DNA of 42,125 nucleotides from a bacterium. GTDB taxonomy: Bacteria > Omnitrophota > Gorgyraeia > Zapsychrales > Zapsychraceae. The position numbers and the translations under genes were made by a program. The stretch is from assembly GCA_030429765.1 (NCBI GenBank), contig JAUIER010000002.1, positions 1-42,125 on the forward strand, in the 5' to 3' direction. Under the pieces are notes generated by a model that had not been told where the DNA came from, made no database searches, and saw only the letters and a program-made list of their open reading frames with translations. Shown here one piece after another: positions 1 through 24,547 of this stretch. The first letter of the stretch is position 1; the number at the start of each line of letters is the position of its first letter.

Positions 1-3000
1 CCAGCCGTTGTCATCGCCGCCACATCATCCCAATTCACAATCGCGTCGCTCATCACATCGATATCCGCCCAATTAATACCCGCTGTACTCAATGATCTCA
101 GATCACTCCAGTTGACACCCGCGTCGCTCATCACATCAATATCCAGCCAGTTCACACCCGCGGTCGATAACTCACCGATGTTGCTCCAGTTGATCCCCGC
201 ATCACTTAAGACATTGATGTCGTCCCAATTGATTCCCGTTGATGACATCGCACCGATATTCGCCCAGTTCACACCTGCGTCACTCAACACATCGATATCC
301 AGCCAGTTGACCCCGCTCGTTGACATCTCACCGATGTTCAGCCAGTTGACTCCCGCATCACTCAACACATCTATGTCATCCCAATTGATACCGGCCACGG
401 ACAATGATTGAATTCCTTCCCAGTTCACACCCGCGTCACTCATCACACCGATATCGGTCCAGTTGATGCCTGATTCACTTAACGCGCCGATGTCATCCCA
501 GTTGATTCCCGACGTTGACAGATCCGCAATATTATCCCAATTGACATTCGCGTCACTGATCGCGTTGATGTCTTCCCAATTCACGCCCGCCGTTGACAAC
601 TCTGCAATACTCGCCCAGTTCACGCCCGCATCGCTCATCACATCAATATCGATCCAATTCACACCCGCTGTACTCAACTCACCAATGTTGCTCCAGTTAA
701 TACCCACATCACTTAACGCGTTGATGTCTTCCCAGTTCACGCCGGTTGTTGATAGGTCCGCGATGTTTGCCCAGTTCACACCGGCCTGGCTCAATACATT
801 CACATCTTCCCAATTGATGCCCGCCGTTGTCATTGTCGCAATATCACTCCAATTGACAATCGCGTCGCTCATCACATTGATGTCTTCCCAATTGATGCCC
901 GCTACCGATAGGGCCTGGATTCCACTCCAGTTGATACCGGTACTGCTCATCACATCGATATCCAGCCAGTTGATGCCCGCCGCACTCAAGTCTCCGATAT
1001 TCGCCCAGTTCACACCCGCATCACTTAACGTGTTGATGTCTTCCCAATTGATACCGCTCGTTGACATCTCAGAGATATTGTCCCAGTTCACATTCGCCGC
1101 GCTGATCGCCGCAAAGTCATCCCAATTCACACCGGCTGTACTCAAGTCCGCGATGTTCGACCAGTTGATACCTGTATCCGACATGACATCCAGATCAGAC
1201 CAATTGATTCCGGTCTGGCTGAGAACACCTATATCATCCCAGTTGATACCGGCAGCCGACAGCGATCCGATATTCAGCCAGTTGATACCCGCATCGCTCA
1301 GACTATTGATATCTTCCCAATTGACTCCCGACGCGCTGAGTTCGCCGATATTGCTCCAATTGATGCCGGCCTCGCTGAGGACATCAATATCTGACCAGTT
1401 GATTCCGGTCGAGGACATATCCGCGATGTTCGCCCAATTAACACCACTCTCGCTCATCACGTCGATATCGGACCAATTGATTCCACTTCGTGACAGATCC
1501 GAGATGTTGGCCCAGTTGATTCCCGCTTCGCTCAGGGCATCAATATCGGACCAATTGATTCCCGTCGTCGACATGTCTGCAATGTTCGCCCAATTGATTC
1601 CCGCGTCACCCATGGCGTTGATCGCGTCCCAATTAATACCCGCTGTCGACAGGTCGCCGATGTTCGCCCAGTTCACACCGCTCTCGCTCATGACGTCGAT
1701 ATCTGACCAATTGATACCGGCCACCGACAGCGATTGGATGCCTGACCAATTGACTCCAGCCTCACTGAGAACACTGATATCATCCCAGTTAATTCCGGTG
1801 CCGGACATCAAACCAATATCATCCCAATTGATTCCTGACGTGGACAGATCCCCAATGTTGCTCCAGTTGATACCCGCGTCACTCAGGACATCAACATCAG
1901 ACCAGTTGATACCCGTCGTGGACATTTGCGCGATGTTGTCCCAGTTAACATTAGCCGCGGTAATCGCATTGATGTCATCCCAATTCACACCGGCGGTGGA
2001 AAGTTGCGCGATACCTTCCCAATTGACGCCCGCGCCAGTCATGACATCGATATCTTCCCAGTTGATTCCTGAAGTAGACAGCTCGCCAATATTCGACCAG
2101 TTAATCCCGGCATCACTCATAATGTTGATGTCCGACCAGTTCACACCGGATACGGTCATTTCACTAATATTCGCCCAGTTGATTCCCGATTCACTCAAGA
2201 CGTCCAGATCCAGCCAGTTGATGCCGCTTGTCGACATCTCGCCGATGTTAGACCAGTTGATGCCGGCCTCGGTCAAAGTATCCACGTCAATCCAGTTGAT
2301 GCCTGTCGTCGATAGATCGGCAATATTCGCCCAATTGACCCCGGATTCACTTAAGACATTGATATCTTCCCAATTGATACCCGCCGTGGTCATATCCGCC
2401 ATATTGGCCCAGTTGACAATCGCCTCGCTCATCACATTGATATCACTCCAGTTGATACCCGCGACAGACAGCGATTGAATACCATCCCAGTTGACGCCGG
2501 CATCACTCATAACTCCAATATCAATCCAGTTGATACCCGACGCCGATAACGATCCGATATCATCCCAGTTGACACCGGCGGTTGTGAGTTCACCGATATT
2601 GTTCCAATTGATGCCCGCGTCGCCTAACGCATTGATGTCAGACCAATTCACACCTGATGTGGACAGCTCACCGATATTCGCCCAGTTGACGCCAGCCTGG
2701 CTCAGCACATTCACATCTTCCCAATTGATCCCCGCCGTTGTCATCACCGCGATATCGCCCCAATTGACGATCGCATCGCTCATCACGTTAATGTCTTCCC
2801 AATTAATACCCGCAACCGATAGGGCTTGAATTCCGCTCCAGTTGATGCCCGCGTCGCTCATCACATCGATATCCTGCCAGTTGATTCCCGTGGTTGAAAG
2901 CTCGCCGATATTCGCCCAATTGATGCCGCTTTCACTCAATACATCGATATCCGTCCAATTGATGCCTGTCGACGACATTTCGGCAATGTTCGCCCAATTG

Positions 3001-6000
3001 ATACCGGTATCTGTCAGCACATTGATGTCATCCCAATTCACACCCGCCGATGAAAGTTCACCTATATTGCTCCAATTGATACCCGCCTCAGTCAGTACGT
3101 CGATATCCACCCAGTTGATACCCGTCGATGACATCTCTGCGATATTCGCCCAGTTGATACCCGTCTCACTGATCACATCGATATCCAGCCAGTTGATACC
3201 GGTCGCCGACATTTCCGCGATGTTGGCCCAGTTCACACCGCTTTCACTCAACACATCAATATCCGCCCAGTTCACACCGCTGGTCGACATGTCGGCAATG
3301 TTCGCCCAGTTGATGCCCGCCGCTGACAGGGTATTGATGTTATCCCAGTTAACCCCGGCCGCGCTCAACTCACCAATGTCTTCCCAATTGATACCGGATG
3401 TTGACAGGTCAGAAATATTCGCCCAGTTGATGCCGCTCTCACTGAGCACGTCGATATCTGACCAATTGATGCCCGACACTGAAATGTCCGAAATATTTGC
3501 CCAGTTGATGCCGGCTTCACTTAAGACATCGATATCCAACCAATTGATACCGGCGGAACTCATCTCGCCGATTCCCGTCCAGTTCACACCCGCGGTGCTC
3601 AACGCGTTGATATCTTCCCAATTCACCCCGGCTACGGATAACGATTGAATACCGCTCCAGTTCACGCCGGCCTGTGACATCACATCAATGTCGCTCCAGT
3701 TGATGCCGGTTGTACTCAATGCTCCGATATCCGCCCAGTTAATTCCGCTTTCGCTTAACGCGTCAATATCCGCCCAATTGATGCCGGTTGTCGTCATCTC
3801 GGCGATATTCGACCAATTTACACCTGACATAGTCAAGGTGTTAATGTCATCCCAGTTGATACCACTGGATGAAAGATCTCCAATGTTGGCCCAATTGATA
3901 CCGGCTTCACTCAGGACATCAATGTCGATCCAGTTGATACCCGTCGATGACATCTCCGCGATATTTGACCAATTGATACCGGCTTCACTTAAGACATCCA
4001 CATCCACCCAGTTGATGCCTGTTGAGGACATCTCGGCGATGTTGGCCCAGTTCACGCCCGACATCGTCAGGCTGTTGATATCGTCCCAGTTGATGCCGCT
4101 GGTTGACATATCTCCGATGTTCGACCAGTTAATACCGGCTTCACTCAGGACGTCGATATCGACCCAGTTGATGCCTGTCGACGACATCTCCGCGATGTTC
4201 GACCAATTGATGCCTGTCTCACTAAGAACGTCAATATCAGCCCAGTTGATACCGGCCGTGCTTAAATCACCAATCCCCGACCAGTTCACACCCGCGGCGC
4301 TCAAGACGTTGATATCCGCCCAGTTGATACCGGAGGTTGATAACTCAGAAATATTACTCCAGTTGACACTCGCCTCGGAAATCACATTGATGTCATCCCA
4401 ATTGACACCCGCCGTCGACAGATCGGCTATACCACTCCAATTGACACCCGCCTCGGTCATGACATTAATGTCGTCCCAATTGACGCCCGCGCTGGATAGC
4501 TGACCGATGTTCGCCCAGTTGACCCCGGCATCACTCATGACATCGATATCGCTCCAGTTGATTCCGGCCACCGACAACGACTCAATCCCGCTCCAGTTGA
4601 TGCCCGCGTCGCTCAAGACGTCAATATCACTCCAGTTCACACCGGCCGTGCTCATGGCATTAATGCCGTCCCAATTCACGCCGGCCGTAGACAAATCACC
4701 GATATTGGCCCAGTTCACGCCTGACTGACTCAGCACGTTCACGTCTTCCCAATTAATCCCAGCGGTCGTCATGACGGCAATGTCACCCCAGTTCACGATG
4801 GCATCGCTCATCACATTGATATCTTCCCAATTGATGCCCGCTACCGACAACGCCTGAATGCCCGACCAATTGATCCCCGCGTCGCTCAACACATTGATAT
4901 CGGCCCAGTTGATGCCCGTGGCCGACATATCGCCGATGTTCGCCCAATTGATGCCTGCGTCACTGATGACATTGATATCTTCCCAATTAATACCGGTCGA
5001 CGACATTTGCGCGATGTTGGCCCAGTTCACGCCGGTATCGCTCATCACCCCGATGTCATCCCAATTCACACCGGCGGTAGAAAGTTCGCCGATATTGGCC
5101 CAATTGACGCCGGCGCCTGTTAGCGCATCGATGTCCGCCCAGTTGATACCCGTCGAAGATAAATCAGCCAGATTGGCCCAGTTCACGCCTGACTGGCTCA
5201 AGACGTTGACATCTTCCCAATTAATACCGGCGGTCGTCATGGACGCGATATCGCTCCAGTTAACGATCGCGTCGCTCATCACATTGATATCTTCCCAATT
5301 GATACCCGCCACTGACAAGGCCTGAATGCCTGTCCAATTAATACCCGCATCGCTCAACACGTTGATATCTTCCCAGTTGATGCCCGCGGATGAAAGATCT
5401 CCGATGTTGGACCAATTGATGCCGGCTTCACTCAATACATCGATATCAATCCAGTTGATTCCCGTCGAGGACAGCTCCGCAATGTTGGCCCAATTTACGC
5501 CCGACTCACTCAGCACATCAATATCCGACCAGTTAATACCGGCGGTGGACAGATCGGCGATGTTCGACCAGTTAACGCCCGCGTCGCTCATCGTGTTGAT
5601 GCCATCCCAGTTGATGCCGGCCACCGACAAGGCTTCAATGCCCAACCAGTTGATTCCCGTCGTTGTCATGGCATTCAAGTCGCTCCAGTTAATACCTGCA
5701 TCGGTCAACGCGTTCACATCATCCCAATTGATACCGGCGGTCGAAAGTTGCCCCAGGTCACCCCAATTGATACCGGCTTCACTTAAGACATCAATATCCA
5801 GCCAGTTGATTCCGGTGGAGGACATCTGCGCGATATTCCCCCAGTTAATGCCGGACACGCTCAAGGCATTGATATCATCCCAGTTCACACCACTGGTCGA
5901 CAAATCACCGATGTTGGCCCAGTTGATGCCGGCCTCGCTTAACACATCGATGTCGACCCAGTTGATTCCCGTTGAGGAAAGCTCGGCGATATTCGACCAA

Positions 6001-9000
6001 TTAATATCCGCTTCGCTTAAAACGTCCACATCCACCCAGTTGATGCCGGTGGATGACATTTCCGCGATATTCGCCCAGTTCACGCCTGACACCGTCAGGT
6101 TGTTGATATCGTCCCAATTAATACCGCTCGTCGACATATCACCAATGTTCGACCAATTGATGCCGGCTTCACTTAGGACGTCGATGTCAACCCAGTTAAT
6201 GCCCGTGGATGACAACTCGGCGATGTTCGCCCAGTTGATTCCGGTCTCGCTCAGGACATCTACGTCGGCCCAGTTGATGCCGGTCGATGACATCTCAGCG
6301 ATGTTCGCCCAGTTGACCCCTGCCTGGCTGAGCACATTGACGTCCGCCCAGTTGATGCCGGTGGACGACAGATCTCCGATGTTCGACCAATTGATGTTTG
6401 ACTCGCTGAGAACATCAATATCGATCCAGTTGATGCCCGTCGAGGAAAGCTCGGCAATGTTCGCCCAGTTCACGCCTGTACTGCTCATGGCGTCAATATC
6501 CAGCCAGTTGATACCGGACGTTGTCATCTCACCAATGTTCGACCAGTTCACACCCGCGTCACTGAGAACATCAATATCATCCCAATTGATCCCGGCGACC
6601 GATAGCGACTGGATACCGCTCCAGTTGACGCCCGCATCAGACATCACGTTGATATCATCCCAGTTAATACCAGCCATGCTCAAGGCGTTGATATCATCCC
6701 AATTGATACCCGCCCCGGATAAACTCGCGATGTTAGACCAGTCAATACCGGCCTGGCTTAGGGTGTTAACGTCTTCCCAATTAATGCCGGCCGTCGTCAT
6801 CACGGCGATGTCACCCCAGTTGACGATGGCTTCACTCATCACATTGATATCATCCCAATTCACACCGGCCACTGAAAGCGCTTGAATGCCTGACCAATTA
6901 ATTCCCGCATCACTGAGAACATCAATCTCGGCCCAATTGATTCCGGTGGATGATAGTTCACCAATATTGTCCCAATTGATTCCGGCCTCACTTAAAACAT
7001 CAATATCCTGCCAATTGATTCCCGAGGCTGACATCTCCCCGATGTTACTCCAGTTAATCCCTGACTGCGTCAGCACATCGATATCATCCCAATTGATGCC
7101 GGCCGTCGATAAACTCTGAATACCGGACCAGTTGATGCCGGCTTCACTTAAGACATCAATATCCTGCCAGTTGATTCCTGTCGAGGACAGCTCCCCAATA
7201 TTCGCCCAGTTGATTCCCACAGCACTGAGCGCATCAATGTCGGCCCAGTTGATACCCGACGTGGAAAGTTCACCGATGTTCGACCAGTTGATGCCGGCGT
7301 CACTCATGACATTCAGGTCATCCCAGTTGACTCCGGATGTTGAAAGGTCCGCAATGTTGGCCCAATTAACACCCGCGTCGCTTAACGTGTCGATTCCGGC
7401 CCAGTTCACACCGGCGGCTGAAAGCGCCCCGATATCATCCCAGTTAATACCTGTCGTCGACAACGCCCCGATATCGCTCCAGTTGATCCCGGCGTCGCTG
7501 AGGACACCGATGTCATTCCAGTTGATGCCGGTCGATGACAATTCAGAAATATTCGCCCAGTTAATGCCGCTTTCACTTAATACGTCGATATCCAGCCAGT
7601 TGATACCGGTGGATGACAATTCGGCGATATTGCTCCAGTTCACACCGGCGCTGCTCATCACATCAATATCCGACCAGTTGATTCCCGACGTGGACAGATC
7701 CTGAATGTTGTTCCAATTCACACCGGCCGATGACAACGCGTCAATGTCCGCCCAGTTGATGCCCGATGTCGACAGATCCTGAATACCGGACCAGTTGATG
7801 CCGGCGTCGCTCAGCACATCAATGTCATTCCAGTTGATGCCCGATGTCGACAAATCCTGAATGCCCGACCAGTTGATACCCGCTGAACTCAGGACATCAA
7901 TATCCGTCCAATTCACGCCGGACATGGTCATCTCGCCGATGTTGGCCCAGTTGATCCCTGACTCGCTGAGCACATCAATATCCACCCAGTTGATTCCGGT
8001 TGACGACATCTCCGCGATGTTGGCCCAGTTGATGCCTGTCTCGCTCATCACATCAATGTCCGACCAGTTGATACCTGATGTCGAAAGGTCGCCGATATTC
8101 GCCCAGTTCACTCCGGCCCCCGACAACGATCCAATATCATCCCAATTGATGCCGCTCGTCGATAGATCACCGATGTTGGACCAATTGATATTTGATTCGC
8201 TCAAGACATCGATATCCAGCCAGTTGATGCCGGTCGATGATAGCTCGGCGATGTTACTCCAGTTGATGCCGGCCTCACTTAACACATCAATATCCTGCCA
8301 ATTTACTCCAGAGGTTGACATCTCACCGATGTTCGCCCAGTTCACGCCCGCGTCGGTCAGCGCGTCGATGTCATCCCAATTAATGCCCGCCACCGAAAGA
8401 TCTTGAATGCCCGACCAATTCACACCCGCCGTGCTCATCACATTAATATCGTCCCAATTAACCCCGGCGGTGCTCAAGTCATTGATCCCCGACCAGTTCA
8501 CGCCTGCCGAACTCAACACATCAATATCCGACCAATTGATTCCCGCGGTTGATAGATCCTGAATTCCCGACCAGTTCACGCCTGCATCGCTGAGAACGCC
8601 GATATCATTCCAATTGATACCCGTCGCGGAGAGTTCGCCAATATTCGCCCAGTTGATGCCCGACTCGCTAAGGACGTTGATGTCCTCCCAATTGATACCC
8701 GCCGTGGTCATTTCCGCGACATTCGACCAATTGACGATCGCGTCACTCATCACTGTGATATCCGCCCAATTAATTCCAGCGACAGATAGATCTTGAATCG
8801 CTGACCAATTCACACCCGCCATGCTTAGCGTGTTGATGTCATCCCAATTGATACCGGCCGTGGACATATCGCCGATGTTGGCCCAGTTAATACCGGTCTC
8901 GCTCATCGCGTCAATATCACTCCAGTTGATACCCGTGGTGGATAGTTCGGCAATATTCGCCCAGTTGACATTGGCGTCGCTGATGGCGGCAAAGTCATCC

Positions 9001-12000
9001 CAGTTCACACCGGCCGTGGTCAGGTCGGCGATGTTCGCCCAGTTCACACCCGCATCGGTAAGCGTGTTAATGTCGTCCCAGTTTATCCCTGAAGTTGAAA
9101 GGTCTTGAATGCCCGACCAGTTGATCCCGGCTTCACTTAATACATCGATATCTGTCCAGTTAATACCGGCCGCCGACAGTGTTTGAATCCCCGACCAGTT
9201 GATCCCGGTGGAGCTCATCACATCGATATCATCCCAATTGATGCCGGCTGTAGATAGATCCTGAATCCCTGACCAGTTGATGCCCGCTTCACTTAATACG
9301 TCGATGTCCGCCCAATTGATACCGGACACGGACAGATCCTGAATCCCTGACCAGTTAATCCCGGCCGAACTCAATACATCAACGTCACTCCAGTTGATAC
9401 CTGCCACCGACAGCGCATTGATGTCGCTCCAGTTGATACCGGCGTCACTCAATACGTCTATGTCATCCCAGTTGATACCGGCGGTGCTTAGCGCGTTAAT
9501 ACCGGACCAATTGACGCCCGCCGCGCTGAGCGTTTGAATGCCGTCCCAGTTGACACCCGACGCTGAAAGCTCTCCGATGTTTGACCAGTTGATCCCTGCG
9601 TCGCTCATCACATCGATGTCAGACCAGTTCACCCCTGACTTGGAAAGTTCACTCACATTTTCCCAGTTGATATTTGCGTCGAAGATGACCATGAAGTCAT
9701 CCCAGTTAATGCCGGCGGTGGTTAGATCTGTCAGACTGGACCAGTTCACACCGGCATCGCTCAACACATCGATATCGCTCCAGTTAATGCCGGCGGTCGA
9801 CATATCCTGGATATTGTCCCAGTTCACACCTGCGTCACTAAGAACATCGATATCACTCCAGTTAATCCCTGCCGTGGATAGATCCTGCAGCCCTGACCAA
9901 TTCACTCCGGCCGCGGACAATGTCCCGATGTCATCCCAATTGATTCCGGCGGTCGAAAGATCTTGAATTCCGGACCAGTTGACACCCGCGTCGCTGAGCA
10001 CGTCGATATCAGACCAATTGATGCCTGTTGTTGATAGTTCGGCAATATTTGACCAATTCACACCTGCGTCGCTCATCACGCCGACATCGTTCCAATTGAT
10101 TCCGGTCGTGGACAGCTCGGCAATATTGCTCCAGTTGACATTAGCGTCACTCAATACGGCAAAGTCATCCCAATTTACGCCCGCCGTCGATAGATCCTGT
10201 ATCCCTGACCAGTTGACGCCGGCATCACTCAAGGCGTCAATGTCATACCAGTTGATGCCTGTATCACTTAAAACCGCCACGTCATCCCAGTTCACCCCGG
10301 AAAGGGTCAACGCTTGCAGATCATCCCAATTGATGCCCGCATCGCTCATCGCATCGATATCCGACCAGTTGATTCCGGCCACCGTCAGTGCGTTCAAATC
10401 ACTCCAATTCACACCGGCTTCACTTAATATGTTGATGTCATCCCAATTGATCCCGGCTGTGCTCAGGTCATTGATACCGCTCCAGTTCACTCCGGACGCG
10501 CTCAATGTCTGAATGCCGTCCCAGTTGACACCGGCCAATGATAGTTCACCGATATTCGACCAATTCACACCTGCGTCGCTCATCACATCGATATCTTGCC
10601 AATTCACGCCGGCCGTCGAAAGCTCTGAAATATTCGCCCAGTTGATATTGGATTCGCTCAGTACAGTGAAGTCATCCCAGTTGATACCTGTCGTGGACAG
10701 ATCGGAAATGTTCGCCCAATTGATCCCTGCTTCACTAAGGGCATCGATATCCAGCCAATTGATGCCCGATGCTGAAAGTTCCGCGATATTATCCCAGTTC
10801 ACACCGGCATCACTTAACACATCAATATCAGACCAATTGATCCCCGACGCTGACAATTCGGCAATGTTGTCCCAGTTGACGTTGGCGTCACTGATCGCGG
10901 CAAAGTCATCCCAATTCACTCCGGCCTTGGACAGTTCACTGATATTGTTCCAGTTCACTCCGGCATCTGTTAACGCGTCAATGTCCTGCCAATTGATACC
11001 TGATAAGGACAGCTCACCGATATTACTCCAGTTGATCCCCGCATCACTCAACACATTGACGTCCGACCAGTTTATCCCCGCCGCGGATAGGTCGCGCACG
11101 TTCGACCAGTTCACACCGGCATCCGACATCACGCCAATATCCGACCAGTTGATACCCGCTTCAGACATCTCTCCGATATTACTCCAATTCACACCGGCTT
11201 CACTTAAGGTATCGATACCATCCCAGTTGATGCCCGTCGTCGACAACTCGGCAATATTTTGCCAGTTCACATTGGCGTCACTGATGACGGCAAAATCATC
11301 CCAATTCACCCCGGCCATCGAAAGCTCAGAGATGTTGGACCAGTTGATACCTGTATCGGAAAGCACATCGATATCTAACCAGTTGATTCCTGAGAGAGAA
11401 AGTTCACCGATATTACTCCAATTGATGCCGGCTTCCGACATGAAGGAAATGTCATCCCAGTTGACACCCGCCGTCGACATAACTCCAATATCATCCCAGT
11501 TCACACCGGCTTCCGAAAACTCGACGAGATCGTCCCAGTTCACACCGGCATTGGTTAAGTCAGCGAGTGAATCCCAATTAATCGTTTCCGACCAGTCAAT
11601 CTTGGCCCCGCTCATGACCGCGATATCCAACCAGTTGATGCCAGACTCAGACATATATTGCATATCCGCCCAATTGACTCCCGCATCACTCAGCACGTCC
11701 AGATCCGACCAATTGATCCCCGCCGAACTCATGATGGCGATGTCATCCCAATTAACGCCCGCCGAGGTAAACTCATCCAGATTCGCCCAGTTCACGCCCG
11801 CATCGCTCATCACATCGATATCCGACCAGTTGATTCCCTGAATGCTCATCGCCGAGATGTCGGCCCAGTTCACACCCGCGTCGGTTAAAGCGTCGATATC
11901 GTCCCAGTTGATGCCGGCAATCGATAATCGCATGATGTCATCCCAGTTGACACTGGCGTTGCTCATCACCCCGATGTCATCCCAATTCACACCGCCCGCA

Positions 12001-13124
12001 CTGATGGAATCGGTCACCGACTTGATCGCCGTCACATCCGAACGGAGCGTGTCGACATCGGCCCAGTTGATGGTATCGGTCGAGGCCTTGATCGTGGAGA
12101 TGTCTTCCCAATTAATAGTGTCCGTATCATCATAAATGGCTTCGATGCGGTCCCAGTTGAACGGTGAAGCGATTTTTGACAGCGAAGGTTTGATTGTCGG
12201 GATCGGGGCATATGTTCGGTACGTCGTACATCCGGTACAGTCAACGATTCCGATTTCGATAAAGTAAGAATCTAACTCATCCGAAGGCGTCCAAAGCTCG
12301 GATTGACACCAGTCTTCGGCGTCCGTCGGATTACGGTCATTGTTGGCACCATTCGAACCAAATTCAAGGATACCACCGGTAACATCATCCGATACCGTTC
12401 CGGATTCAAGGTTCCCTGCGGAATTATAAAGGCTACCCGCCAAACACGTATCAAGCGTCCCGTCATCCAACGGCAAGCGTTGGTTATCCGATTCAATCCA
12501 GGTGTAGATTGTATATGCCCCGTCACCGGCCAAAGCGTCATCATCCCACACGGCTGCCAGCTTTACCCCTGTACCCGGAAGAACGTCAAACGGATCAGAA
12601 ATAGCAGAGGTAAGGCCGGGAGCCGTTGCTATCAGCGTGTACAATTCCCCGCCGGCAGTAATAAGCAGATCGGTATAGGCTGCTTTACCGCCTGAAGCCT
12701 CGACGGAAGTGGTTCCTTCCAGCGTTCCGGCCCCGGGGTTGTTGAAGATATCCAAGGTAATTTGAGTGGAGTTGTCTGTTGTCACCAAGTTATCATTGGC
12801 GTCTCGAATTTCAACGATCGGTTGGCGTCGGAATTCGAACCCGTGTTTTGTTGCGTTAGGAATTTGTGTGAAGACAAGTTTGGAAGGAGTGCCGTGTGAC
12901 AGAGACTCGGCATTAGGGGAAGTGCCACTCGTTAGACCTGTTGAAGGTCCACCTGAAAAGATATCATCACCAAGGGATGATTCAGCGTCGCCACTGTAGG
13001 CTCCACCCGTAAACTGGGCAAGCGCTACCGTCGGGACCTGAGCAAATACAAACAGAACCGCGACCAAACAGGCGACAGCTCTGTGAAATTGATAGTACCA
13101 ACCGGATTTATTGCTTATTCTCAT
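1..13124 (-). CDS. Giant secreted tandem-repeat protein, 3' end beyond window (at least 4374 aa)
   Basis: The minus-strand frame starting at ATG 13124 (in-frame TAA four codons upstream) stays open to the window edge; no stop was met in the parts I translated, and the frame of the conserved Trp codons is unchanged from 12155 to 32. Residues 1-36 form a signal peptide ending ALA|Q. Residues about 82-183 resemble a bacterial Ig-like (Big/filamin) domain (KLVFTQ start, VEIRDAND core). Residues 184-320 hold several Cys and are unrecognised. Trp 324, 339 and 354 mark 15-residue units; from Trp 381 to Trp 4365 there are 306 units of 13 residues (G-I/V-N-W-x-D-I-x-x-L/M-S-x-A) plus one 6-residue unit. 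The start has no clear Shine-Dalgarno and lies 28 nt after the FGE-like gene, so it is probably cotranscribed. A cell-surface filament, adhesin or sheath is inference. Giant repetitive proteins are known in Omnitrophota. Confidence 0.88.
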   Translation of the reverse strand, partial: MRISNKSGWYYQFHRAVACLVAVLFVFAQVPTVALAQFTGGAYSGDAESSLGDDIFSGGPSTGLTSGTSPNAESLSHGTPSKLVFTQIPNATKHGFEFRRQPIVEIRDANDNLVTTDNSTQITLDIFNNPGAGTLEGTTSVEASGGKAAYTDLLITAGGELYTLIATAPGLTSAISDPFDVLPGTGVKLAAVWDDDALAGDGAYTIYTWIESDNQRLPLDDGTLDTCLAGSLYNSAGNLESGTVSDDVTGGILEFGSNGANNDRNPTDAEDWCQSELWTPSDELDSYFIEIGIVDCTGCTTYRTYAPIPTIKPSLSKIASPFNWDRIEAIYDDTDTINWEDISTIKASTDTINWADVDTLRSDVTAIKSVTDSISAGGVNWDDIGVMSNASVNWDDIMRLSIAGINWDDIDALTDAGVNWADISAMSIQGINWSDIDVMSDAGVNWANLDEFTSAGVNWDDIAIMSSAGINWSDLDVLSDAGVNWADMQYMSESGINWLDIAVMSGAKIDWSETINWDSLADLTNAGVNWDDLVEFSEAGVNWDDIGVMSTAGVNWDDISFMSEAGINWSNIGELSLSGINWLDIDVLSDTGINWSNISELSMAGVNWDDFAVISDANVNWQNIAELSTTGINWDGIDTLSEAGVNWSNIGEMSEAGINWSDIGVMSDAGVNWSNVRDLSAAGINWSDVNVLSDAGINWSNIGELSLSGINWQDIDALTDAGVNWNNISELSKAGVNWDDFAAISDANVNWDNIAELSASGINWSDIDVLSDAGVNWDNIAELSASGINWLDIDALSEAGINWANISDLSTTGINWDDFTVLSESNINWANISELSTAGVNWQDIDVMSDAGVNWSNIGELSLAGVNWDGIQTLSASGVNWSGINDLSTAGINWDDINILSEAGVNWSDLNALTVAGINWSDIDAMSDAGINWDDLQALTLSGVNWDDVAVLSDTGINWYDIDALSDAGVNWSGIQDLSTAGVNWDDFAVLSDANVNWSNIAELSTTGINWNDVGVMSDAGVNWSNIAELSTTGINWSDIDVLSDAGVNWSGIQDLSTAGINWDDIGTLSAAGVNWSGLQDLSTAGINWSDIDVLSDAGVNWDNIQDMSTAGINWSDIDVLSDAGVNWSSLTDLTTAGINWDDFMVIFDANINWENVSELSKSGVNWSDIDVMSDAGINWSNIGELSASGVNWDGIQTLSAAGVNWSGINALSTAGINWDDIDVLSDAGINWSDINALSVAGINWSDVDVLSSAGINWSGIQDLSVSGINWADIDVLSEAGINWSGIQDLSTAGINWDDIDVMSSTGINWSGIQTLSAAGINWTDIDVLSEAGINWSGIQDLSTSGINWDDINTLTDAGVNWANIADLTTAGVNWDDFAAISDANVNWANIAELSTTGINWSDIDAMSETGINWANIGDMSTAGINWDDINTLSMAGVNWSAIQDLSVAGINWADITVMSDAIVNWSNVAEMTTAGINWEDINVLSESGINWANIGELSATGINWNDIGVLSDAGVNWSGIQDLSTAGINWSDIDVLSSAGVNWSGINDLSTAGVNWDDINVMSTAGVNWSGIQDLSVAGINWDDIDALTDAGVNWANIGEMSTSGVNWQDIDVLSEAGINWSNIAELSSTGINWLDIDVLSESNINWSNIGDLSTSGINWDDIGSLSGAGVNWANIGDLSTSGINWSDIDVMSETGINWANIAEMSSTGINWVDIDVLSESGINWANIGEMTMSGVNWTDIDVLSSAGINWSGIQDLSTSGINWNDIDVLSDAGINWSGIQDLSTSGINWADIDALSSAGVNWNNIQDLSTSGINWSDIDVMSSAGVNWSNIAELSSTGINWLDIDVLSESGINWANISELSSTGINWNDIGVLSDAGINWSDIGALSTTGINWDDIGALSAAGVNWAGIDTLSDAGVNWANIADLSTSGVNWDDLNVMSDAGINWSNIGELSTSGINWADIDALSAVGINWANIGELSSTGINWQDIDVLSEAGINWSGIQSLSTAGINWDDIDVLTQSGINWSNIGEMSASGINWQDIDVLSEAGINWDNIGELSSTGINWAEIDVLSDAGINWSGIQALSVAGVNWDDINVMSEAIVNWGDIAVMTTAGINWEDVNTLSQAGIDWSNIASLSGAGINWDDINALSMAGINWDDINVMSDAGVNWSGIQSLSVAGINWDDIDVLSDAGVNWSNIGEMTTSGINWLDIDAMSSTGVNWANIAELSSTGINWIDIDVLSESNINWSNIGDLSSTGINWADVNVLSQAGVNWANIAEMSSTGINWADVDVLSETGINWANIAELSSTGINWVDIDVLSEAGINWSNIGDMSTSGINWDDINNLTVSGVNWANIAEMSSTGINWVDVDVLSEADINWSNIAELSSTGINWVDIDVLSEAGINWANIGDLSTSGVNWDDINALSVSGINWGNIAQMSSTGINWLDIDVLSEAGINWGDLGQLSTAGINWDDVNALTDAGINWSDLNAMTTTGINWLGIEALSVAGINWDGINTMSDAGVNWSNIADLSTAGINWSDIDVLSESGVNWANIAELSSTGINWIDIDVLSEAGINWSNIGDLSSAGINWEDINVLSDAGINWTGIQALSVAGINWEDINVMSDAIVNWSDIASMTTAGINWEDVNVLSQSGVNWANLADLSSTGINWADIDALTGAGVNWANIGELSTAGVNWDDIGVMSDTGVNWANIAQMSSTGINWEDINVISDAGINWANIGDMSATGINWADINVLSDAGINWSGIQALSVAGINWEDINVMSDAIVNWGDIAVMTTAGINWEDVNVLSQSGVNWANIGDLSTAGVNWDGINAMSTAGVNWSDIDVLSDAGINWSGIESLSVAGINWSDIDVMSDAGVNWANIGQLSSAGVNWDDINVMTEAGVNWSGIADLSTAGVNWDDINVISEASVNWSNISELSTSGINWADINVLSAAGVNWSGIGDLSTAGINWADIDVLSETGINWSNIAEMSSTGINWVDIDVLSEAGINWSNIGDMSTSGINWDDINSLTMSGVNWANIAEMSSTGINWVDVDVLSEAGINWSNIAEMSSTGINWIDIDVLSEAGINWANIGDLSSSGINWDDINTLTMSGVNWSNIAEMTTTGINWADIDALSESGINWADIGALSTTGINWSDIDVMSQAGVNWSGIQSLSVAGVNWEDINALSTAGVNWTGIGEMSSAGINWLDIDVLSEAGINWANISDISVSGINWSDIDVLSESGINWANISDLSTSGINWEDIGELSAAGVNWDNINTLSAAGINWANIADMSTSGVNWADIDVLSESGVNWANIAEMSATGINWLDIDVISETGINWANIAEMSSTGINWVDIDVLTEAGINWSNIGELSSAGVNWDDINVLTDTGINWANIAEMSSTGINWTDIDVLSESGINWANIGELSTTGINWQDIDVMSDAGINWSGIQALSVAGINWEDINVMSDAIVNWGDIAVMTTAGINWEDVNVLSQAGVNWANIGELSTSGVNWSDINALGDAGINWNNIGELTTAGVNWDDIGSLSASGINWIDIGVMSDAGVNWDGIQSLSVAGINWSDINVMSEAIVNWANMADMTTAGINWEDINVLSESGVNWANIADLSTTGINWIDVDTLTEAGINWSNIGEMSTSGINWLDLDVLSESGINWANISEMTVSGVNWSDINIMSDAGINWSNIGELSTSGINWEDIDVMTGAGVNWEGIAQLSTAGVNWDDINAITAANVNWDNIAQMSTTGINWSDVDVLSDAGINWSNIGDLSTSGINWDDIGLMSGTGINWDDISVLSEAGVNWSGIQSLSVAGINWSDIDVMSESGVNWANIGDLSTAGINWDAINAMGDAGINWANIADMSTTGINWSDIDALSEAGINWANISDLSRSGINWSDIDVMSESGVNWANIADMSSTGINWSDIDVLSEAGINWSNIGELSASGVNWEDINSLSDAGINWLNIGSLSAAGINWDDIGVLSQTGINWSDLDVMSDTGINWSNIADLSTAGVNWDDFAAISAANVNWDNISEMSTSGINWEDINTLSDAGVNWANIGDLSAAGINWLDIDVMSSTGINWSGIQALSVAGINWEDINVMSDAIVNWSDIATMTTAGINWEDVNVLSQAGVNWANIADLSTTGVNWEDINALSDVGINWSNIGELSTAGVNWIDIDVMSDAGVNWASIAELSTAGVNWEDINAISDANVNWDNIADLSTSGINWDDIGALSESGINWTDIGVMSDAGVNWEGIQSLSVAGINWDDIDVLSDAGVNWLNIGEMSTSGVNWLDIDVLSDAGVNWANIGAMSSTGINWDDINVLSDAGINWSNIGELSTAGVNWLDIDVMSDAGVNWSDLRSLSTAGINWADIDVMSDAIVNWDDVAAMTTA
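30..11984 (-). repeat. 39-bp tandem repeat array, 306 units, in frame
   Basis: TGG codons (CCA on the plus strand) recur every 39 nt. Checked positions 30, 849, 2409, 5061, 9000, 10989, 11457 and 11574 all share the same remainder modulo 39. The interval 30-11574 is exactly 296 x 39 nt. One 18-nt unit follows (11574-11592), then ten more 39-nt units to 11982. The units differ freely at synonymous positions (Gly GGA/GGC/GGG/GGT, Ile ATC/ATT, Asn AAC/AAT) while the Asn-Trp pair is kept. This points to selection on the protein rather than recent slippage. Confidence 0.95.
11985..12155 (-). repeat. Boundary repeats: two 15-residue units and one 27-residue spacer
   Basis: Between the N-terminal domains and the 13-residue array, the Trp codons sit at 12153-12155, 12108-12110, 12063-12065 and 11982-11984. 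The spacings are 45, 45 and 81 nt. The 15-residue units read N-W-x-x-I-x-x-I-x-x-x-T-D-T-I. They share the N-W-x-D-I core of the main array but add two residues and the T-D-T motif. They look like the ancestral or capping form of the repeat. Confidence 0.8.
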
Positions 13125-13152: not shown

Positions 13153-14787
13153 TTAAGGAGCCGTCCGAACCAGACGACCTCCCCCAAAAATTCCCAACGA
13201 TGAATCGTATCGTTGGCTGTAGCCTTCACTGTCCGGATCCTGTGCCGCGTGTGTTCGTGAAGACGTTTGAAAAGCGCGGACATTCGACGATTGAAAATCT
13301 CCGCCGCGATAACCGCTGCCCACCGTACCTGTAACTCCCCGGGCGGCATCAACCGCGTTGATCCCGGGCCAGTCCGTATTGGTTGCATTTCCTTCAAAGT
13401 TGTTGAGAACTGAGAGTGTTCCGTCACCGTGTGTCCCCAGGAACTGACGTCCCTGACTTCGCCCCACGGTCACGACCATTTCATTAAGATTTCCTGACAA
13501 TTCCATGTTCCCATAATATCCCGCTCCGCTTGTCGCCCGATTAGTCGTCTCTTCCGCAAAAATTCCTGCACGTATAGCCCCTTTTTGGCCATCCGCGTTG
13601 CCGCCGACCCGTCCATCACCTGAGGACCAACTCAAACTATTTCGGTTGATGTTGGCTGATCCGTCAAAGATCTGCTCGCCGCCGTTCTCGTCGGCATCCG
13701 GAAAGATCTCGCTGGCCTGAGCCTCATTCATCGTTGTCTTGCCCCAGGCATATTCATTTGGTACAGGTTGAATATCCGTCCCACGCGCCGCTTTTTCATA
13801 TTCCAATTCGGTCATCGGACGAAGTCCGGCCCAATCGGCATACGCGGCCAGGTCCGGCCATGACAGATAGCTCATCGCACGGTCGGGCCTGAGTGTGGTC
13901 GCCACCGCCCGTTCGTCGTTGGAATCCCATGCAATCGTATTGCGATTGACAATCCCGTCGGTGTTTTTACCGCCCTGCAGCGAACTCGTAATGTCACGTG
14001 TTAATTTTTGTTCGTAGGTCAATGTGTTGAAAAACCGTACCCACTGCCCTTCGGTCAATTCGTATTTCATCATATAAAAGCCGCTGTACCCCTTTGGAAA
14101 TGATGATGGAATCAGAAACGTCGATCCCGAGCTGTCTTCACCTGTCGCCCCGGAACTCTGATAGTAAAACCCGTCACTGACGGTGTTGATCACATTGATG
14201 GCATTCTCACTTTGGATGTACCAGGCCTCGTTGTCTCCGCTGCCTTGTTTAAACCGGTAGTCCGAAGAACTGTTTCCATCACCGGCATAAAATGAACCCT
14301 CAGGGATCTTCACCATTTCAACACCGAAAATCTTAACCACCGTATTGGCAGCGCCGGCCTGATCATCTGTCAAACCGTCTTGGCCGTAATCCCACACAAA
14401 GGTGACATTGGTCGCCTCAACGTTACCGGTTGCAAAATTAGTTTGCTCAAGGAAAAAACCACGCTCGTCCTGAGGAACCAGCACTTGAAAACCGCTGGTC
14501 GGATCAAATCCGGCGGGGTTCAAGCCGCTGCCGGCCATACTCCCGTGCTTCCAAGTGGTTCCGCCGTCGGTTGAAAACTTGATAAAAGCCCATACCGCGT
14601 CATTAGACTCAACTGATTTCCATCCATTCGACCAGCTGAAATCGGCCTGCATCGCGATGACGTTATTCGCTGAATTCATGCTGGTGACCTCTAGATCTTC
14701 GATCTGAAGATTGTTCGCATCAACAGCTTTAGCGCTTAAAGAAAACGCTATCCCGGCTACTAAAAAAATTTTTAAGTAATTCATCAT
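13153..14787 (-). CDS. Exported FGE-sulfatase-fold protein (SUMF1-like), paralogue 1
   Basis: 544 aa from ATG 14787. This start gives a signal peptide (MMNYLKIFLVAGIAFSLSAKA) and lies 4 nt after the upstream stop; an ORF start at 14868 would put 27 unrelated residues before the signal. The N-terminal half is a beta-rich domain with the motif NDAVWAFIKF. The C-terminal half has FGE-sulfatase hallmarks: FYMMKYELTEGQW, RPMTELEYEKAARG, GYYGNMELSGNLNE and a terminal GYRGGDF segment. The region that holds the two copper-binding Cys in true formylglycine-generating enzymes has none here, so enzyme activity is unlikely; a binding or structural surface role is more plausible. It is paralogous to the next gene upstream and precedes the giant repeat gene by 28 nt. 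Confidence 0.85.
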   Translation of the reverse strand: MMNYLKIFLVAGIAFSLSAKAVDANNLQIEDLEVTSMNSANNVIAMQADFSWSNGWKSVESNDAVWAFIKFSTDGGTTWKHGSMAGSGLNPAGFDPTSGFQVLVPQDERGFFLEQTNFATGNVEATNVTFVWDYGQDGLTDDQAGAANTVVKIFGVEMVKIPEGSFYAGDGNSSSDYRFKQGSGDNEAWYIQSENAINVINTVSDGFYYQSSGATGEDSSGSTFLIPSSFPKGYSGFYMMKYELTEGQWVRFFNTLTYEQKLTRDITSSLQGGKNTDGIVNRNTIAWDSNDERAVATTLRPDRAMSYLSWPDLAAYADWAGLRPMTELEYEKAARGTDIQPVPNEYAWGKTTMNEAQASEIFPDADENGGEQIFDGSANINRNSLSWSSGDGRVGGNADGQKGAIRAGIFAEETTNRATSGAGYYGNMELSGNLNEMVVTVGRSQGRQFLGTHGDGTLSVLNNFEGNATNTDWPGINAVDAARGVTGTVGSGYRGGDFQSSNVRAFQTSSRTHAAQDPDSEGYSQRYDSSLGIFGGGRLVRTAP

Positions 14788-14791
14788 AACT

Positions 14792-16384
14792 TTAGTTGGA
14801 ATCAACCGTCCGGACTCCCCGTCCGCCGACATTGGCGTAAGCTGTCGGATCTGATTTGGCCGCGTCATTGCGGTCTGAAATTCTTAGTCTGGCTCCGCCG
14901 GATTCATCGCTGTATGAACCGCCGCGGTATCCGCTTCCCATGGCGTTGGTCACGCCGCGGCTGACCTGCACATCAGTTCCCGGCCATCCGTCCACATTAG
15001 CGAACCCTTCAAATCCCGCTCCGGCCGTTAAAACCCCATCACCATGTTGCCCGGTAAACGCGCGTCCCGTGGCGTTCCCGATTGTGACGGCCTGTTCTTT
15101 CAGGTTTCCCGACAATTCCATCACACCGTAATAGCCGGCACCCGCCTGCTCACGGTTAGACGTGGGCGTGGCAAAGATCCCCACGCGCAATGGACCTTGT
15201 GCAAATTGCGCGCCGTTTGGAACATCACCGCCGCTGAAAACTTGATTATTAAAATTGGTGTTCGCTCCCGCTGTGACAACGGTTTCGTTACCATCTTCAT
15301 CTCCGCCTGAAATCGCGTTGGCCGCGGCAATATTTGTCGTTCCCCAGGCAAACGCCCCTTCTTCCGGCTGAACCGGGCCACGTGCCGCTTTCTCGAATTC
15401 AAGCTCCGTCATCGGTCGTAGCGCCGCCCAATCCAGAAAGGCCGCGAGATTCATCCAGCTCACATACGATACCGGACGGTTGGGCCGCTGGGTGGAACAC
15501 GCGAGCGGTGATCCCGAACAACTAATCGTATTGCGAGCCATCACCGCATCGGTATTTTTGTGCGCCCCGTCTGTTAAGTCATGATTCGCGCGCGCCCCGG
15601 CTGATGGCAAACCATTCAGAAATTCGACCCATTGACCTTCTGTCAGTTCGTATTTCATCATATAAAAAGCCTGATAACCTTTGGGAAACTCATCGGGAAT
15701 GGAAAACGATGACCCGGTGGCGTCTTCCGTCGGTAGACCGGCCGACACATACCGGTAACCATTCGTTCCCGGATTTGATACAGAAATACCGGACTCACTC
15801 GACACATACCATGGATCAGTGTCCGCACTTCCTTCATTTAGGGACGCTGCGCTCGTTGAATAGTCACCGGCGTAAAATTCCGCTTCCGGCACAAAAACCA
15901 TTTCTAAGCCGAACACGTTTAGGTACGCCGCGTTCTCTTCGGTGAAGCCGCAGCTTTCATAGTCAAGCTGCAGCGCCACATTCACAGATGACACATTGGC
16001 CGCTTTGCCGTAATCATTCAGACGGATAAACGCTCCTTTACGGTCATCCGGCACATAGATCTCAAGATTATTGGCCGTCCCTGTGGACGATCCTGCCGGA
16101 TTTAAACCACTATTCGTGATGTTGCAGAGTATTTTGTTGGTTGGTGAAACTTCAGGATCATGTAAACGGAACGTCAACCACACGGCGTCGTGATTGATTT
16201 TTGTGCGCCACGCATTGTCCCACGATAAGCTAAACTCTGCGCTGAGCGTTTTTGTTGAAGGATTCCGCTGACCGATTTGAACATTACTGATGCTCAAATT
16301 GCTAGCCATCGCGACAGAGGCGCATAGCAAGGTCATGACCGCTGTCAACATAAAGGTCAGGTTAAACTTTTTCGTGCAAGGCAT
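14792..16384 (-). CDS. Exported FGE-sulfatase-fold protein (SUMF1-like), paralogue 2
   Basis: 530 aa from ATG 16384, which begins a good signal peptide (MPCTKKFNLTFMLTAVMTLL, cleavage near AMA|SN). A GTG at 16468 is preceded by an AAGGA-like site and would add 28 hydrophilic residues, so the start is not settled. It shares order and motifs with paralogue 1: an N-terminal beta domain with HDAVWLTFRL, then FYAGD, FYMMKYELTEGQWVEF, RPMTELEFEKAARG, GYYGVMELSGNLKE and SGYRGGSYSDE. The catalytic Cys pair of FGE is absent. The pair looks like a tandem duplication. The 193-nt gap to the TPR gene may hold a promoter, but I see no convincing boxes. Confidence 0.84.
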   Translation of the reverse strand: MPCTKKFNLTFMLTAVMTLLCASVAMASNLSISNVQIGQRNPSTKTLSAEFSLSWDNAWRTKINHDAVWLTFRLHDPEVSPTNKILCNITNSGLNPAGSSTGTANNLEIYVPDDRKGAFIRLNDYGKAANVSSVNVALQLDYESCGFTEENAAYLNVFGLEMVFVPEAEFYAGDYSTSAASLNEGSADTDPWYVSSESGISVSNPGTNGYRYVSAGLPTEDATGSSFSIPDEFPKGYQAFYMMKYELTEGQWVEFLNGLPSAGARANHDLTDGAHKNTDAVMARNTISCSGSPLACSTQRPNRPVSYVSWMNLAAFLDWAALRPMTELEFEKAARGPVQPEEGAFAWGTTNIAAANAISGGDEDGNETVVTAGANTNFNNQVFSGGDVPNGAQFAQGPLRVGIFATPTSNREQAGAGYYGVMELSGNLKEQAVTIGNATGRAFTGQHGDGVLTAGAGFEGFANVDGWPGTDVQVSRGVTNAMGSGYRGGSYSDESGGARLRISDRNDAAKSDPTAYANVGGRGVRTVDSN

Positions 16385-16577
16385 AGTCGGGTCTGGGAAA
16401 TGCACCTTCAGGTCACTATCCGTTGTATCTGCTGTTGATTGACTACTATATATTGTCCTCAGATACACACAGTTTCCTTGAAGTAAACCACTTAATTTAC
16501 CAAAAATTATGAAATTGTATTAGTTTCCAACCGATGTTTGCGCCCGGGTAAACGGCGCGACAGACAACCCACTCAAA

Positions 16578-17093
16578 CTACCGATATTTTTCCAAATCTT
16601 CTTCGAGCTTTGAATCAACCTTGGCTCGCAATTCCAGCTCCGCCTGAACAATCTTACCATTGACGAACTTACGGTCTTTGGCCGACGGATTCAAATACAA
16701 ATACATTTTGTAGTGCTTCAGCGCTGTTTTGTGATCACCCAGATGCTCACCGCTGACAAAGGCCAAGTTGTAATGCGCGTCCGGATCATTCGGCATTAAC
16801 GTGATGGCCTGAAAATACTCCCGGGCCGCGATTTCGTAGTGGCCCTTTTGAAAATAGATATTGCCCATGTTGTAGTGCGCTTTGGCCGCGTCTACTTGAA
16901 GCCGGTCATCATTGATGCTGTATGAGTCGATGTTTGAAATCAGGTCATAGGTCCTGTTTTCCCGGCCGCTGATTTCGTGATCATACTGAGCTTCGGCGCT
17001 GACACCCCCTACAGACAGGATCAATAGGGTCGTGACTATCAAAGATAAAAATCGATCCGATTTGTTTTTTATCTCGTTTTCATTTTTTCGCAT
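16578..17093 (-). CDS. Small exported TPR protein next to secretin
   Basis: 171 aa from ATG 17093, preceded by a GAGGG Shine-Dalgarno seven bases upstream; a longer ORF start at 17120 lacks this. The N-terminus is a signal peptide or anchor (FLSLIVTTLLILSVGGVSAEA). Residues about 70-150 hold two to three TPR helices (AHYNMGNIYFQKGHYEIAAR, PDAHYNLAF, ALKHYKMYLYLNP). The C-terminus is charged and helical. It follows the secretin by 26 nt. TPR pilotins such as PilF/PilW assist secretin assembly, and this gene could play that part, but no lipobox is visible, so the pilotin role is inference. Confidence 0.8.
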   Translation of the reverse strand: MRKNENEIKNKSDRFLSLIVTTLLILSVGGVSAEAQYDHEISGRENRTYDLISNIDSYSINDDRLQVDAAKAHYNMGNIYFQKGHYEIAAREYFQAITLMPNDPDAHYNLAFVSGEHLGDHKTALKHYKMYLYLNPSAKDRKFVNGKIVQAELELRAKVDSKLEEDLEKYR

Positions 17094-17119
17094 CGTCGTC
17101 CCTCTTGAATGATTTAGCA

Positions 17120-18721
17120 TTAGTCTGTGCTATAGGATTTAAATGGTTTGATTGTTCCGTTCATTTGCTCATAGTCTTCATGACCGGCCACGATGTGCGG
17201 CGTCAAGAAGATAACAATTTCAGTCTGTGCGAAGTTATCAGATGTGCGGCTGAAGACCTTGCCGAGAAGCGGCATTTCCATCAGCACTGGAAACCCTTTT
17301 TTCTGGTGCACCCGGTCATCTTTTTTCAGACCACCAAGTATGATTGTATGCGAATCCTGCACCATCACGGTTGTTTCAACTTCGGTCTTGTTGACCTGCG
17401 GAATTCCGCCGCCTTGAGATTCAACCGTACCGACAATGGTCGAGATTTCCGGACGCAAACGCATTGTTACAAAACCTTCATCGTTGATCGTCGGCGTGAC
17501 ATTCAACTTGAGTCCGACGTCGATAAAACGAACATCCTCACTGGTAATAGCGTTGTCACCCGTTCCCGATGTCGTTGAGATGATGTACGGAACGGTGTCA
17601 CCGATGTGAATCTTGGCCTCTTCGTTATTGGTCACTAAAATTTTCGGATTCGACAGAATTTTTGTCTCACTCACTTGCTTGAGCGCACGTAATGTGGCCT
17701 CAAATGAATTGATGTCAAAATCACCGTAAGCCACTTGACCGAATGTAGAGGCCAAATTGTCACTGGAGGAGATGTTTCCGATGTTGGTGTAGGTGTTGTT
17801 GAAGGAAAGCTTACGCAGGTTGTCGGATCCGCTGTTTCGGAAATCCTTTTGCCAGTCGATACCGACATCGTATTCCGGATTGATAACCACTTGGAGAATT
17901 CGGGCATCCACCAGCACCTCTTTGGTCGGTGTGTCGAGTTTTTTGACGACAGACTCGATCTCACGCCGTCTTTCCGGGAAGGCCCGGACAATCAATTTGT
18001 TTGAGCGCTCATCCGGTGTGATTGAACCCACCGCTTTAGCGTCGATACGCGCGCGTAATTTATTGGCCACCACATCGGCGCTGGCATACTGCAACGTGTA
18101 GACATATGTTTCCAAAGGCTTCTCAATCTCGCGTACCGCTTGCTTCATTTTTTCAATCGCATCGGGTGTGTCGATCATAACCACAGAGCCGGTGTCTTCA
18201 TCTATTATTATACGTCCAACGTTGCTCTTGATACTGTCCAATGCGGCCAATGCATAGCTTGGCTTGGCGTAATTCAAACGGATGATCGAGACTTCAGTTT
18301 GATCCCCAAATCTTTTACCGAACATGGATTCGTGTTCAGCCGCCGTCATAATCTGTACAATTTCACCCTGGACTTTGTACGCCAGGTTATTGGAAATGAT
18401 AACGATATCCAACGCATCCCGAATTGTTACGCTGTTTAATAAGACGGTTGAACGTCCTTCCACCGTCGGGGAAATGACAATATTAAAGTCGCCTTTAAGC
18501 GCGAGAAACTTGATTACGTCCACGATGTTCATGTCCCGGACATCCAGCGAAATTTTTCGCTCCATCCGTTTCATGATCTCTTCTTCATACTGTTTGATGC
18601 GAATCGGTTTTGGTTTCTGCGCATGTGCCGGCGTGATGATCGACATGGTAAAAATCATGGCGAGCAGTATAGACAGACAACCCAATCCTGTTAACGTCTT
18701 TTTACAGTTGTGGTTTTTCAT
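17120..18721 (-). CDS. Secretin, PilQ/GspD-like outer membrane channel
   Basis: 533 aa with a signal peptide ending AHA|Q. Residues about 55-125 form an STN/N0 domain (ISLDVRDMNIVDVIKFLA, then VTIRDALD). Two N1/N2 KH-like domains follow (VSIIRLNYAKPSYALAAL; TYVYTLQYASADVVANKLRA, ending in ANKL/NKLIV signatures). The secretin C-domain begins at KEVLVDARILQV and ends with QTEIVIFLTPHIV; it includes the VPYI and VGLKLNVTPTIN stretches. It forms the outer-membrane pore of type II secretion or type IV pili. The start overlaps the upstream GspC/PilP-like gene by 20 nt, indicating translational coupling. No ATPase, pilin or PilM/N/O gene is in the window. Confidence 0.92.
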   Translation of the reverse strand: MKNHNCKKTLTGLGCLSILLAMIFTMSIITPAHAQKPKPIRIKQYEEEIMKRMERKISLDVRDMNIVDVIKFLALKGDFNIVISPTVEGRSTVLLNSVTIRDALDIVIISNNLAYKVQGEIVQIMTAAEHESMFGKRFGDQTEVSIIRLNYAKPSYALAALDSIKSNVGRIIIDEDTGSVVMIDTPDAIEKMKQAVREIEKPLETYVYTLQYASADVVANKLRARIDAKAVGSITPDERSNKLIVRAFPERRREIESVVKKLDTPTKEVLVDARILQVVINPEYDVGIDWQKDFRNSGSDNLRKLSFNNTYTNIGNISSSDNLASTFGQVAYGDFDINSFEATLRALKQVSETKILSNPKILVTNNEEAKIHIGDTVPYIISTTSGTGDNAITSEDVRFIDVGLKLNVTPTINDEGFVTMRLRPEISTIVGTVESQGGGIPQVNKTEVETTVMVQDSHTIILGGLKKDDRVHQKKGFPVLMEMPLLGKVFSRTSDNFAQTEIVIFLTPHIVAGHEDYEQMNGTIKPFKSYSTD

Positions 18722-21828: not shown

Positions 21829-21829
21829 G

Positions 21830-22597: not shown

Positions 22598-22600
22598 AAC

Positions 22601-23872: not shown

Positions 23873-23922
23873 TTTCGTAAGAGGTAATGTAAAGTCTGCT
23901 CATGACACCTGAGATCGGTATC

Positions 23923-23960: not shown

Positions 23961-23977
23961 CAAAAATATTTACTCAT

Positions 23978-24508: not shown

Positions 24509-24547
24509 CAAACATCCTCCTGTAAAAGTTATCGCCAACTTGATTTC

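Follow-up and report, generated by a model that had tools for sequence, protein, structure and literature searches.

What does a gene encode whose reading frame is still open when its contig ends, and with which partners does its product work? The window, the whole stretch of 42,125 nucleotides analyzed here, is contig C34:1-42125 of an Omnitrophota genome (3.31 Mb, 34 contigs, 95% complete), and its position 1 is the contig end. The initial annotation, made from the window alone, described a giant secreted repeat protein whose frame leaves the window without a stop, a description that proved correct and understated. The ORF listing and the translation reveal no stop over the 4374 codons of the minus-strand frame 13124..3, and the other two minus frames across 3..13124 hold 290-297 stops. 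The plus-strand ORFs of 155-671 aa within 463..11841, already suspected to be false, are antisense shadows of this gene. Beyond the reach of that annotation lay the second half of the giant, a membrane-anchor partner, and a setting of T2SS and F-type ATPase genes; this locus setting is a more important finding than the repeat gene alone. The features of the window are collected in Table 1.

Table 1. Positions of the giant gene, its parts, and its upstream neighbors in the window
Feature	Position	Strand	Basis or remark
Thirteen-residue array	3..11990	(-)	Consensus N-W-x-D-[IL]-x-x-[LM]-[ST]-x-A-G-[IV]
Entry units before the array, 15-residue spacing (TDTINWEDISTIKAS)	11991..12167	(-)	Translation and alignment
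Second beta domain, conserved Trp and Cys (~residues 197-310)	12195..12536	(-)	AlphaFold2 (lower confidence), alignment
Ig-like domain (~residues 82-195)	12540..12881	(-)	AlphaFold2 pLDDT ~80-94; Foldseek
Signal peptide (residues 1-36, MRIS...VALA/QFTGG, predicted cleavage at the slash)	13017..13124	(-)	Alignment; sole transmembrane-like window of the giant
Giant gene, 5' (N-terminal) half	1..13124	(-)	4374 codons, open at the contig end; synteny with G036
Exported FGE-sulfatase-fold protein 1	13153..14868	(-)	Pfam; no conserved Cys
Exported FGE-sulfatase-fold protein 2	14792..16468	(-)	Pfam; conserved Cys outside the C-terminal region
TPR protein, conserved in the locus	16578..17120	(-)	Pfam; synteny
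Secretin (GspD)	17120..18721	(-)	PF00263, 1.6e-47; synteny
GspC-like inner-membrane protein	18702..19325	(-)	PF11356 just below cut-off; synteny

The stop codon sought past position 1 was found on a second contig. The end of contig C4 is the sole other site in the source genome with array DNA, on the same strand and in the same phase. The second half of the gene runs from 189998 down to ~177467 of C4 for 4176 more codons, and the stop adjoins C4:177467. A direct join of C34 to C4 breaks the 13-residue period and a gap of 12+39n bases restores it; a small unsequenced gap, not fixed in size, remains between the two ends. The join is supported by the related genome G036 because it carries the whole gene on one 104-kb contig (open frame of 10,972 aa, 32.9 kb, 805 units), with an N-terminus and a C-terminus homologous to those of the source giant (DDIVVKTWFESEE versus DEIIVKTWFESE) and the same genes on both flanks. 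The source product measures at least ~8,550 aa and its frame at least 25.6 kb across the two contigs, which, at more than 20 kb, places it by size among the Omnitrophota giant ORFs. In genome G018 the gene is in three fragments totalling >11,700 aa, and the length among relatives, where it can be estimated, ranges from 8,550 to >11,700 aa. Contigs of short-read genomes almost always break at the array, which leaves the gene split, truncated, or missed; this exposes a blind spot of such genomes, in which broken contigs hide the giant gene.

The array as a whole comprises more than 600 units of 13 residues, almost uninterrupted. The rhythm of more than 300 Trp units first reported for the window corresponds to 312 [ND]W units, with a spacing of exactly 13 in 306 of 311 cases, as against a mean of 0.94 and a maximum of 5 such spacings in residue-shuffled copies. 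A further 302 units follow on C4, where all 301 spacings are exactly 13. The mature giant contains 7.3% Trp, 11.8% Asp, 11.2% Asn, and 0.5% Lys plus Arg, for a net charge of about -1250. Between units, synonymous divergence is saturated (pS ~0.75) and replacement divergence is confined to a pN of 0.25-0.38 (pN/pS 0.34-0.51); recurring 40-mers number 0 in the N-terminal half and 14 in the C-terminal half. The array is old and maintained by selection, and neither a recent expansion nor an assembly error, because synonymous sites are saturated while replacements are restrained. In the source genome, units are most alike when 2 or 6 positions apart, and in G036 similarity is flat across lags; the longer periods are therefore lineage-specific, and what is conserved is the 13-residue unit.

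The repeat had been unfamiliar to the initial annotation, and the searches bear this out. Pfam returned no match for the first 431 aa of the giant; for a 1000-aa array stretch it gave weak summed matches to unrelated enzymes, with no single stretch over a curated cut-off. The candidates 2-Hacid_dh, Lysostaphin_N, Met_gamma_lyase, and CutC were rejected as such sums of weak repeats. A profile search of PDB sequences with the repeat yielded nothing convincing, and its best match, the LDL receptor (E 0.38), was taken as chance. The string G-[IV]-N-x-x-D-[IL] prompted us to consider a dockerin or EF-hand origin, which stayed a lead: D-x-[DN]-x-[DN]-G calcium loops numbered 0 in each of the three proteins checked, and the Dockerin family of Pfam gave no match. 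By these Pfam and PDB sequence searches, the 13-residue Trp unit qualifies as a new repeat family. Nearly free of indels over hundreds of copies, it should be useful in structural biology and in repeat-protein design. The first description also proposed a solenoid of short stacked helices. AlphaFold2, given 16 units with 40 in-array rows, placed a helix of 9-10 residues in every unit, beginning beside the Trp and stopping before the Gly, at a mean pLDDT of 49.7. One short helix per unit is thereby weakly supported and stacking of these helices is plausible, while the solenoid itself is not demonstrated by the model.

The array is framed by distinct ends. At the N-terminus, the motif A-Q-[FY]-x-G-G is conserved around the predicted cleavage site of the signal peptide, and the giant lacks other transmembrane-like windows, multiple transmembrane helices included. 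The Ig-like domain named in the initial annotation is modeled with high confidence, and its Foldseek matches include intimin D0-D1 (6tpl) and InvE (5n40). The model points to a fold shared with intimin/invasin-type adhesins, and not to membership in the intimin family; butyrophilins, the top Foldseek matches, were set aside as generic Ig folds with low TM-scores. The Cys-bearing segment that was said to follow is also present, with Cys 227, 273, 296, and 299, in addition to Cys19 inside the signal peptide. After the array, the giant closes with a 250-residue predicted helical tail ending IIVKTWFESE.

The genes around the giant give it a context. On the minus strand, a GspC-like gene, the secretin gene gspD, a TPR gene, and the genes of two exported FGE-fold proteins lead up to the giant. 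It is followed by ORF445 (the anchor), F1 alpha, epsilon, c, a two-helix protein, b/delta, gamma, and beta, and then by GspE, GspF, a peptidase-like protein, GspG, I, J, K, a PilM/GspL-like protein, GspM, and a TPR protein. The giant gene is thus located within a run of T2SS genes, with GspC and GspD upstream and GspE-M downstream. This order is conserved: ORF445 and F1 alpha lie directly downstream of the giant in 18/18 genomes examined, GspE then follows in 17 of the 18 (in G027 the contig ends first), TPR-GspD-GspC lies upstream in 10/10, and the FGE pair in 8/10. The assignment to T2SS relies on the secretin, on Pfam matches of GspE and GspF, on GspG, which scores over its cut-off, and on matches for GspI, J, K, M, and the PilM/GspL-like protein. 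Curated cut-offs are missed by GspC, I, J, and M and, outside Pfam, by GspK, and no GspH was identified. The GspE protein (L009:8427-10658) has an N-terminal MshEN and a C-terminal PilZ domain, and some relatives have a shorter GspE; these domains suggest that the machinery may be under cyclic-di-GMP control. The two FGE-fold neighbors match PF03781 (1.6e-14 and 5.4e-11). They are probably not enzymes, and were rejected as active formylglycine-generating enzymes, because neither family (9 genomes each) has a conserved Cys column in the C-terminal 150 residues, where the catalytic Cys pair was looked for. Beside the locus, positions 19807-29649 of the window carry genes for glycosyltransferases, a methyltransferase, an S41 peptidase, a lipoate ligase, and glycine cleavage, in an order kept across the bacterial order; a small protein with an EF-hand/dockerin-like C-terminus (23978-24538) has homologues at the same place in several relatives.

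The locus ATPase, with alpha, beta, gamma, epsilon, b/delta, and c (PF00137) subunits, is the second F-type set of this genome, in addition to a separate canonical ATP synthase on contig C8. Its alpha and beta subunits pass generic F1 models. Of the a and c subunits expected together in a proton-translocating F1Fo cluster, the locus has c alone; no a subunit was found in it, and the only PF00119 match of the genome is on C8, with the canonical F1 genes. The c subunit has as its neighbor an 80-aa two-helix membrane protein (L009:13774-14016) with an acidic residue in helix 2 and no Pfam match, which may be a divergent c subunit or a replacement for a.

The gene that follows the giant is ORF445. 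Its product has a signal peptide, a beta-plus-coiled-coil-like domain in two copies, one transmembrane segment near the C-terminus, and a short charged tail, and the ORF445 start overlaps the giant stop by one base. The ORF445 profile matches 154/384 Omnitrophota genomes. We sampled 20 anchor loci, and 19 of them contain the F-type ATPase and T2SS set. In ten of the 20, the anchor domain and its transmembrane segment are fused to the C-terminus of a giant whose body, where sampled, is Ig/fibronectin-like, unlike the NW array, with open frames of up to 12,861 aa; in the loci lacking a fusion, the anchor is a gene of its own behind an ORF that is long or cut off by the contig end. Unrelated giants hold the same locus position in other Omnitrophota classes. 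The motif hydrophobic-x-x-[WY]-[FYLM]-E (for instance VVKTWFE) ends 28 of 29 unfused ORFs upstream of the anchor, and fused giants share the helical stretch and carry a similar sequence, P[VI][VI]x(T/S), directly before it. Giant and anchor behave as a single unit, which some lineages encode in two pieces, because the same module is fused to the C-termini of different giants elsewhere. Genome G109, a single 1.97-Mb contig, has two giant-anchor pairs (3244 and 4548 aa); FGE-fold genes lie upstream of one pair, and T2SS/F-ATPase genes ~7 kb from the other. In genome G144, a second locus (L103, contig C14, 15420-16679) encodes a giant with 15-residue units (AIKTKTDTISWADVT), likely a sister repeat of the 13-residue unit, and has two F1-alpha-like genes in a row. 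The anchor homologues at G054:C34, G242:C46, and G274:C242 each contain one in-frame TAA or TAG, for which decay, sequencing error, and recoding are candidate explanations.

All named relatives of the giant are Omnitrophota metagenome-assembled genomes, in agreement with the first assignment of this DNA. N-terminal homologues were detected in 19 of 37 genomes searched, the source genome included, and C-terminal or array homologues in 27 of the 37; the latter extend to 62/384 Omnitrophota genomes in several classes. Several relatives of the same order have no detectable giant gene, and many assemblies are broken at that place. A viral origin was rejected, with no relative among viral contigs.

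We propose that the giant gene, on balance, encodes the fibre of a dedicated cell-envelope machine. The array would form a long acidic rod that is exported by Sec and held by its C-terminus at the inner membrane through the anchor, while the T2SS-like part would pass the N-terminal end, with its Ig domains, out of the cell by way of the secretin. Force or torque to extend, retract, or move the fibre would come from the rotary ATPase. The fibre would probably serve to attach the bacterium to other cells or surfaces or to move it over them, working like the gliding legs of Mycoplasma or SprB of Flavobacterium. A wider reading is more tentative: an undescribed Omnitrophota machine in which an F-type ATPase and a T2SS-like apparatus move an anchored giant fibre through the secretin for gliding, tethering, or predation. 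As part of that same tentative reading, the fibre would be exchangeable between lineages, with the 13-residue Trp solenoid, Ig/fibronectin-like chains, and others as its types. The position of the giant gene within a secretion/rotary-ATPase cluster, beside its own membrane anchor, suggests that the unexplained giant proteins of Omnitrophota serve a single machine at the cell surface as working components. A T2SS usually exports folded proteins and releases them, and a membrane-anchored rod through the secretin would be unusual, which speaks against a fibre. The low confidence of the solenoid model, the missing a subunit of the cluster, scores under the Mycoplasma gliding cut-offs, and the several relatives of the order in which no giant gene could be detected also count against it, though many assemblies are broken at that place.

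The main rival to a fibre machine is a static coat, secreted or held at the surface. The giant would then be ordinary T2SS cargo (a secreted coat, matrix, or adhesin), with an ATPase that does no more than energise secretion or maintain ion balance, and with no movement. A complete T2SS around the gene and a strongly acidic, low-complexity product with the net charge given above speak for such cargo, and an extracellular coat has been proposed for giant proteins in V. archaeovorus (PMC10066038). We consider this reading rather unlikely, since the anchor, fused to the giant or directly after it in every sampled locus, argues against release, and a dedicated second F-type ATPase is foreign to known T2SS, which use GspE. 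The giant could also stay within the envelope, spanning or wrapping the periplasm as a scaffold or ruler that organises the T2SS/ATPase complex. The signal peptide, the inner-membrane anchor, the failure to find an outer-membrane domain, and exported FGE-fold partners that could be periplasmic track proteins are consistent with it, yet a rod built from over 600 units would be much longer than the periplasm is wide, and the wide variation in length disfavors a fixed-gap ruler; we regard it as improbable. It is very improbable that a giant adhesin gene has merely hitch-hiked near an unrelated T2SS/ATPase cluster, given the same position over several classes with non-homologous giants, the fused or adjacent anchor, the one-base overlap, and the common C-terminal motif. 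Although contigs end in the array in almost all genomes, the assembly artefact that the initial annotation allowed for, or a pseudogene array, is extremely improbable given 8,550 codons without a stop, an N-terminal half without a recurring 40-mer, saturated synonymous sites with restrained replacements, and a complete independent copy in G036.

The fibre reading can be set beside known systems that pair a motor with large surface proteins. Mycoplasma mobile has a type 2 F1-like ATPase with Gli349/Gli521, a motor proposed to move surface legs (PMC11864180, PMC8406192). Both have F1-type motor genes distinct from those of the ATP synthase, together with large surface proteins. In contrast to M. 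mobile, epsilon, b/delta, and c are present here and the genes lie amid those of a T2SS; the searches made revealed no relationship for the repeat, and the alpha and beta subunits score below the cut-offs of the Mycoplasma gliding ATPase models (NF045863, 377.8 versus 600 bits; NF045858, 409.8 versus 850 bits). GldJ and GldK of Flavobacterium have FGE-like folds, and two exported FGE-fold proteins precede the giant here, an analogy for which we claim no homology. The giant surface adhesin SprB is moved by a rotary motor on the GldJ/GldK track (PMC12635249). That system combines Type 9 secretion with a proton-driven motor, whereas the present locus combines a T2SS with an F-type ATPase.

The closest comparison is within the phylum itself. 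Seymour et al. 2023, in the accessible part of their report, describe 'symbiotic' F-type ATPase/type-4a pilus loci in Omnitrophota and treat giant ORFs of unknown function separately from them (PMC10066038). Those giants, which include a V. archaeovorus ORF of 39,678 aa, are exported and were proposed to act in adhesion, coat formation, or predation, and most Velamenicoccia giants were called poorly conserved (PMC10066038). Their loci share with ours the phylum and a second F-type ATPase beside genes of the type IV pilus/T2SS family, and they are probably the same loci. The descriptions diverge in that the assembly genes here match T2SS (GspC, G, I, J, K, M) and that giant and anchor are inside the locus, where that part of the report places neither. 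The present giant differs further from the giant ORFs described there: apart from the signal peptide it has no transmembrane segment, its repeat is a single Trp unit of 13 residues, and it belongs to a conserved family whose locus and partner are defined. In the searchable literature, which leaves supplements, preprints, and subscription papers outside, we found no prior report that places giants in such loci or that describes the anchor, the C-terminal motif, or the repeat; within that literature, the placement of the giant in the locus, its anchor partner, its C-terminal motif, and its repeat family appear to be new. Relative to these earlier accounts, the giant genes of Omnitrophota now have a constant place in the genome, a membrane anchor as partner, a signature at the C-terminus, and a candidate for their motor, and three traits hitherto reported apart (giant ORFs, 'symbiotic' F-type ATPases, and pilus/T2SS genes) are joined into one phylum-wide, testable system.
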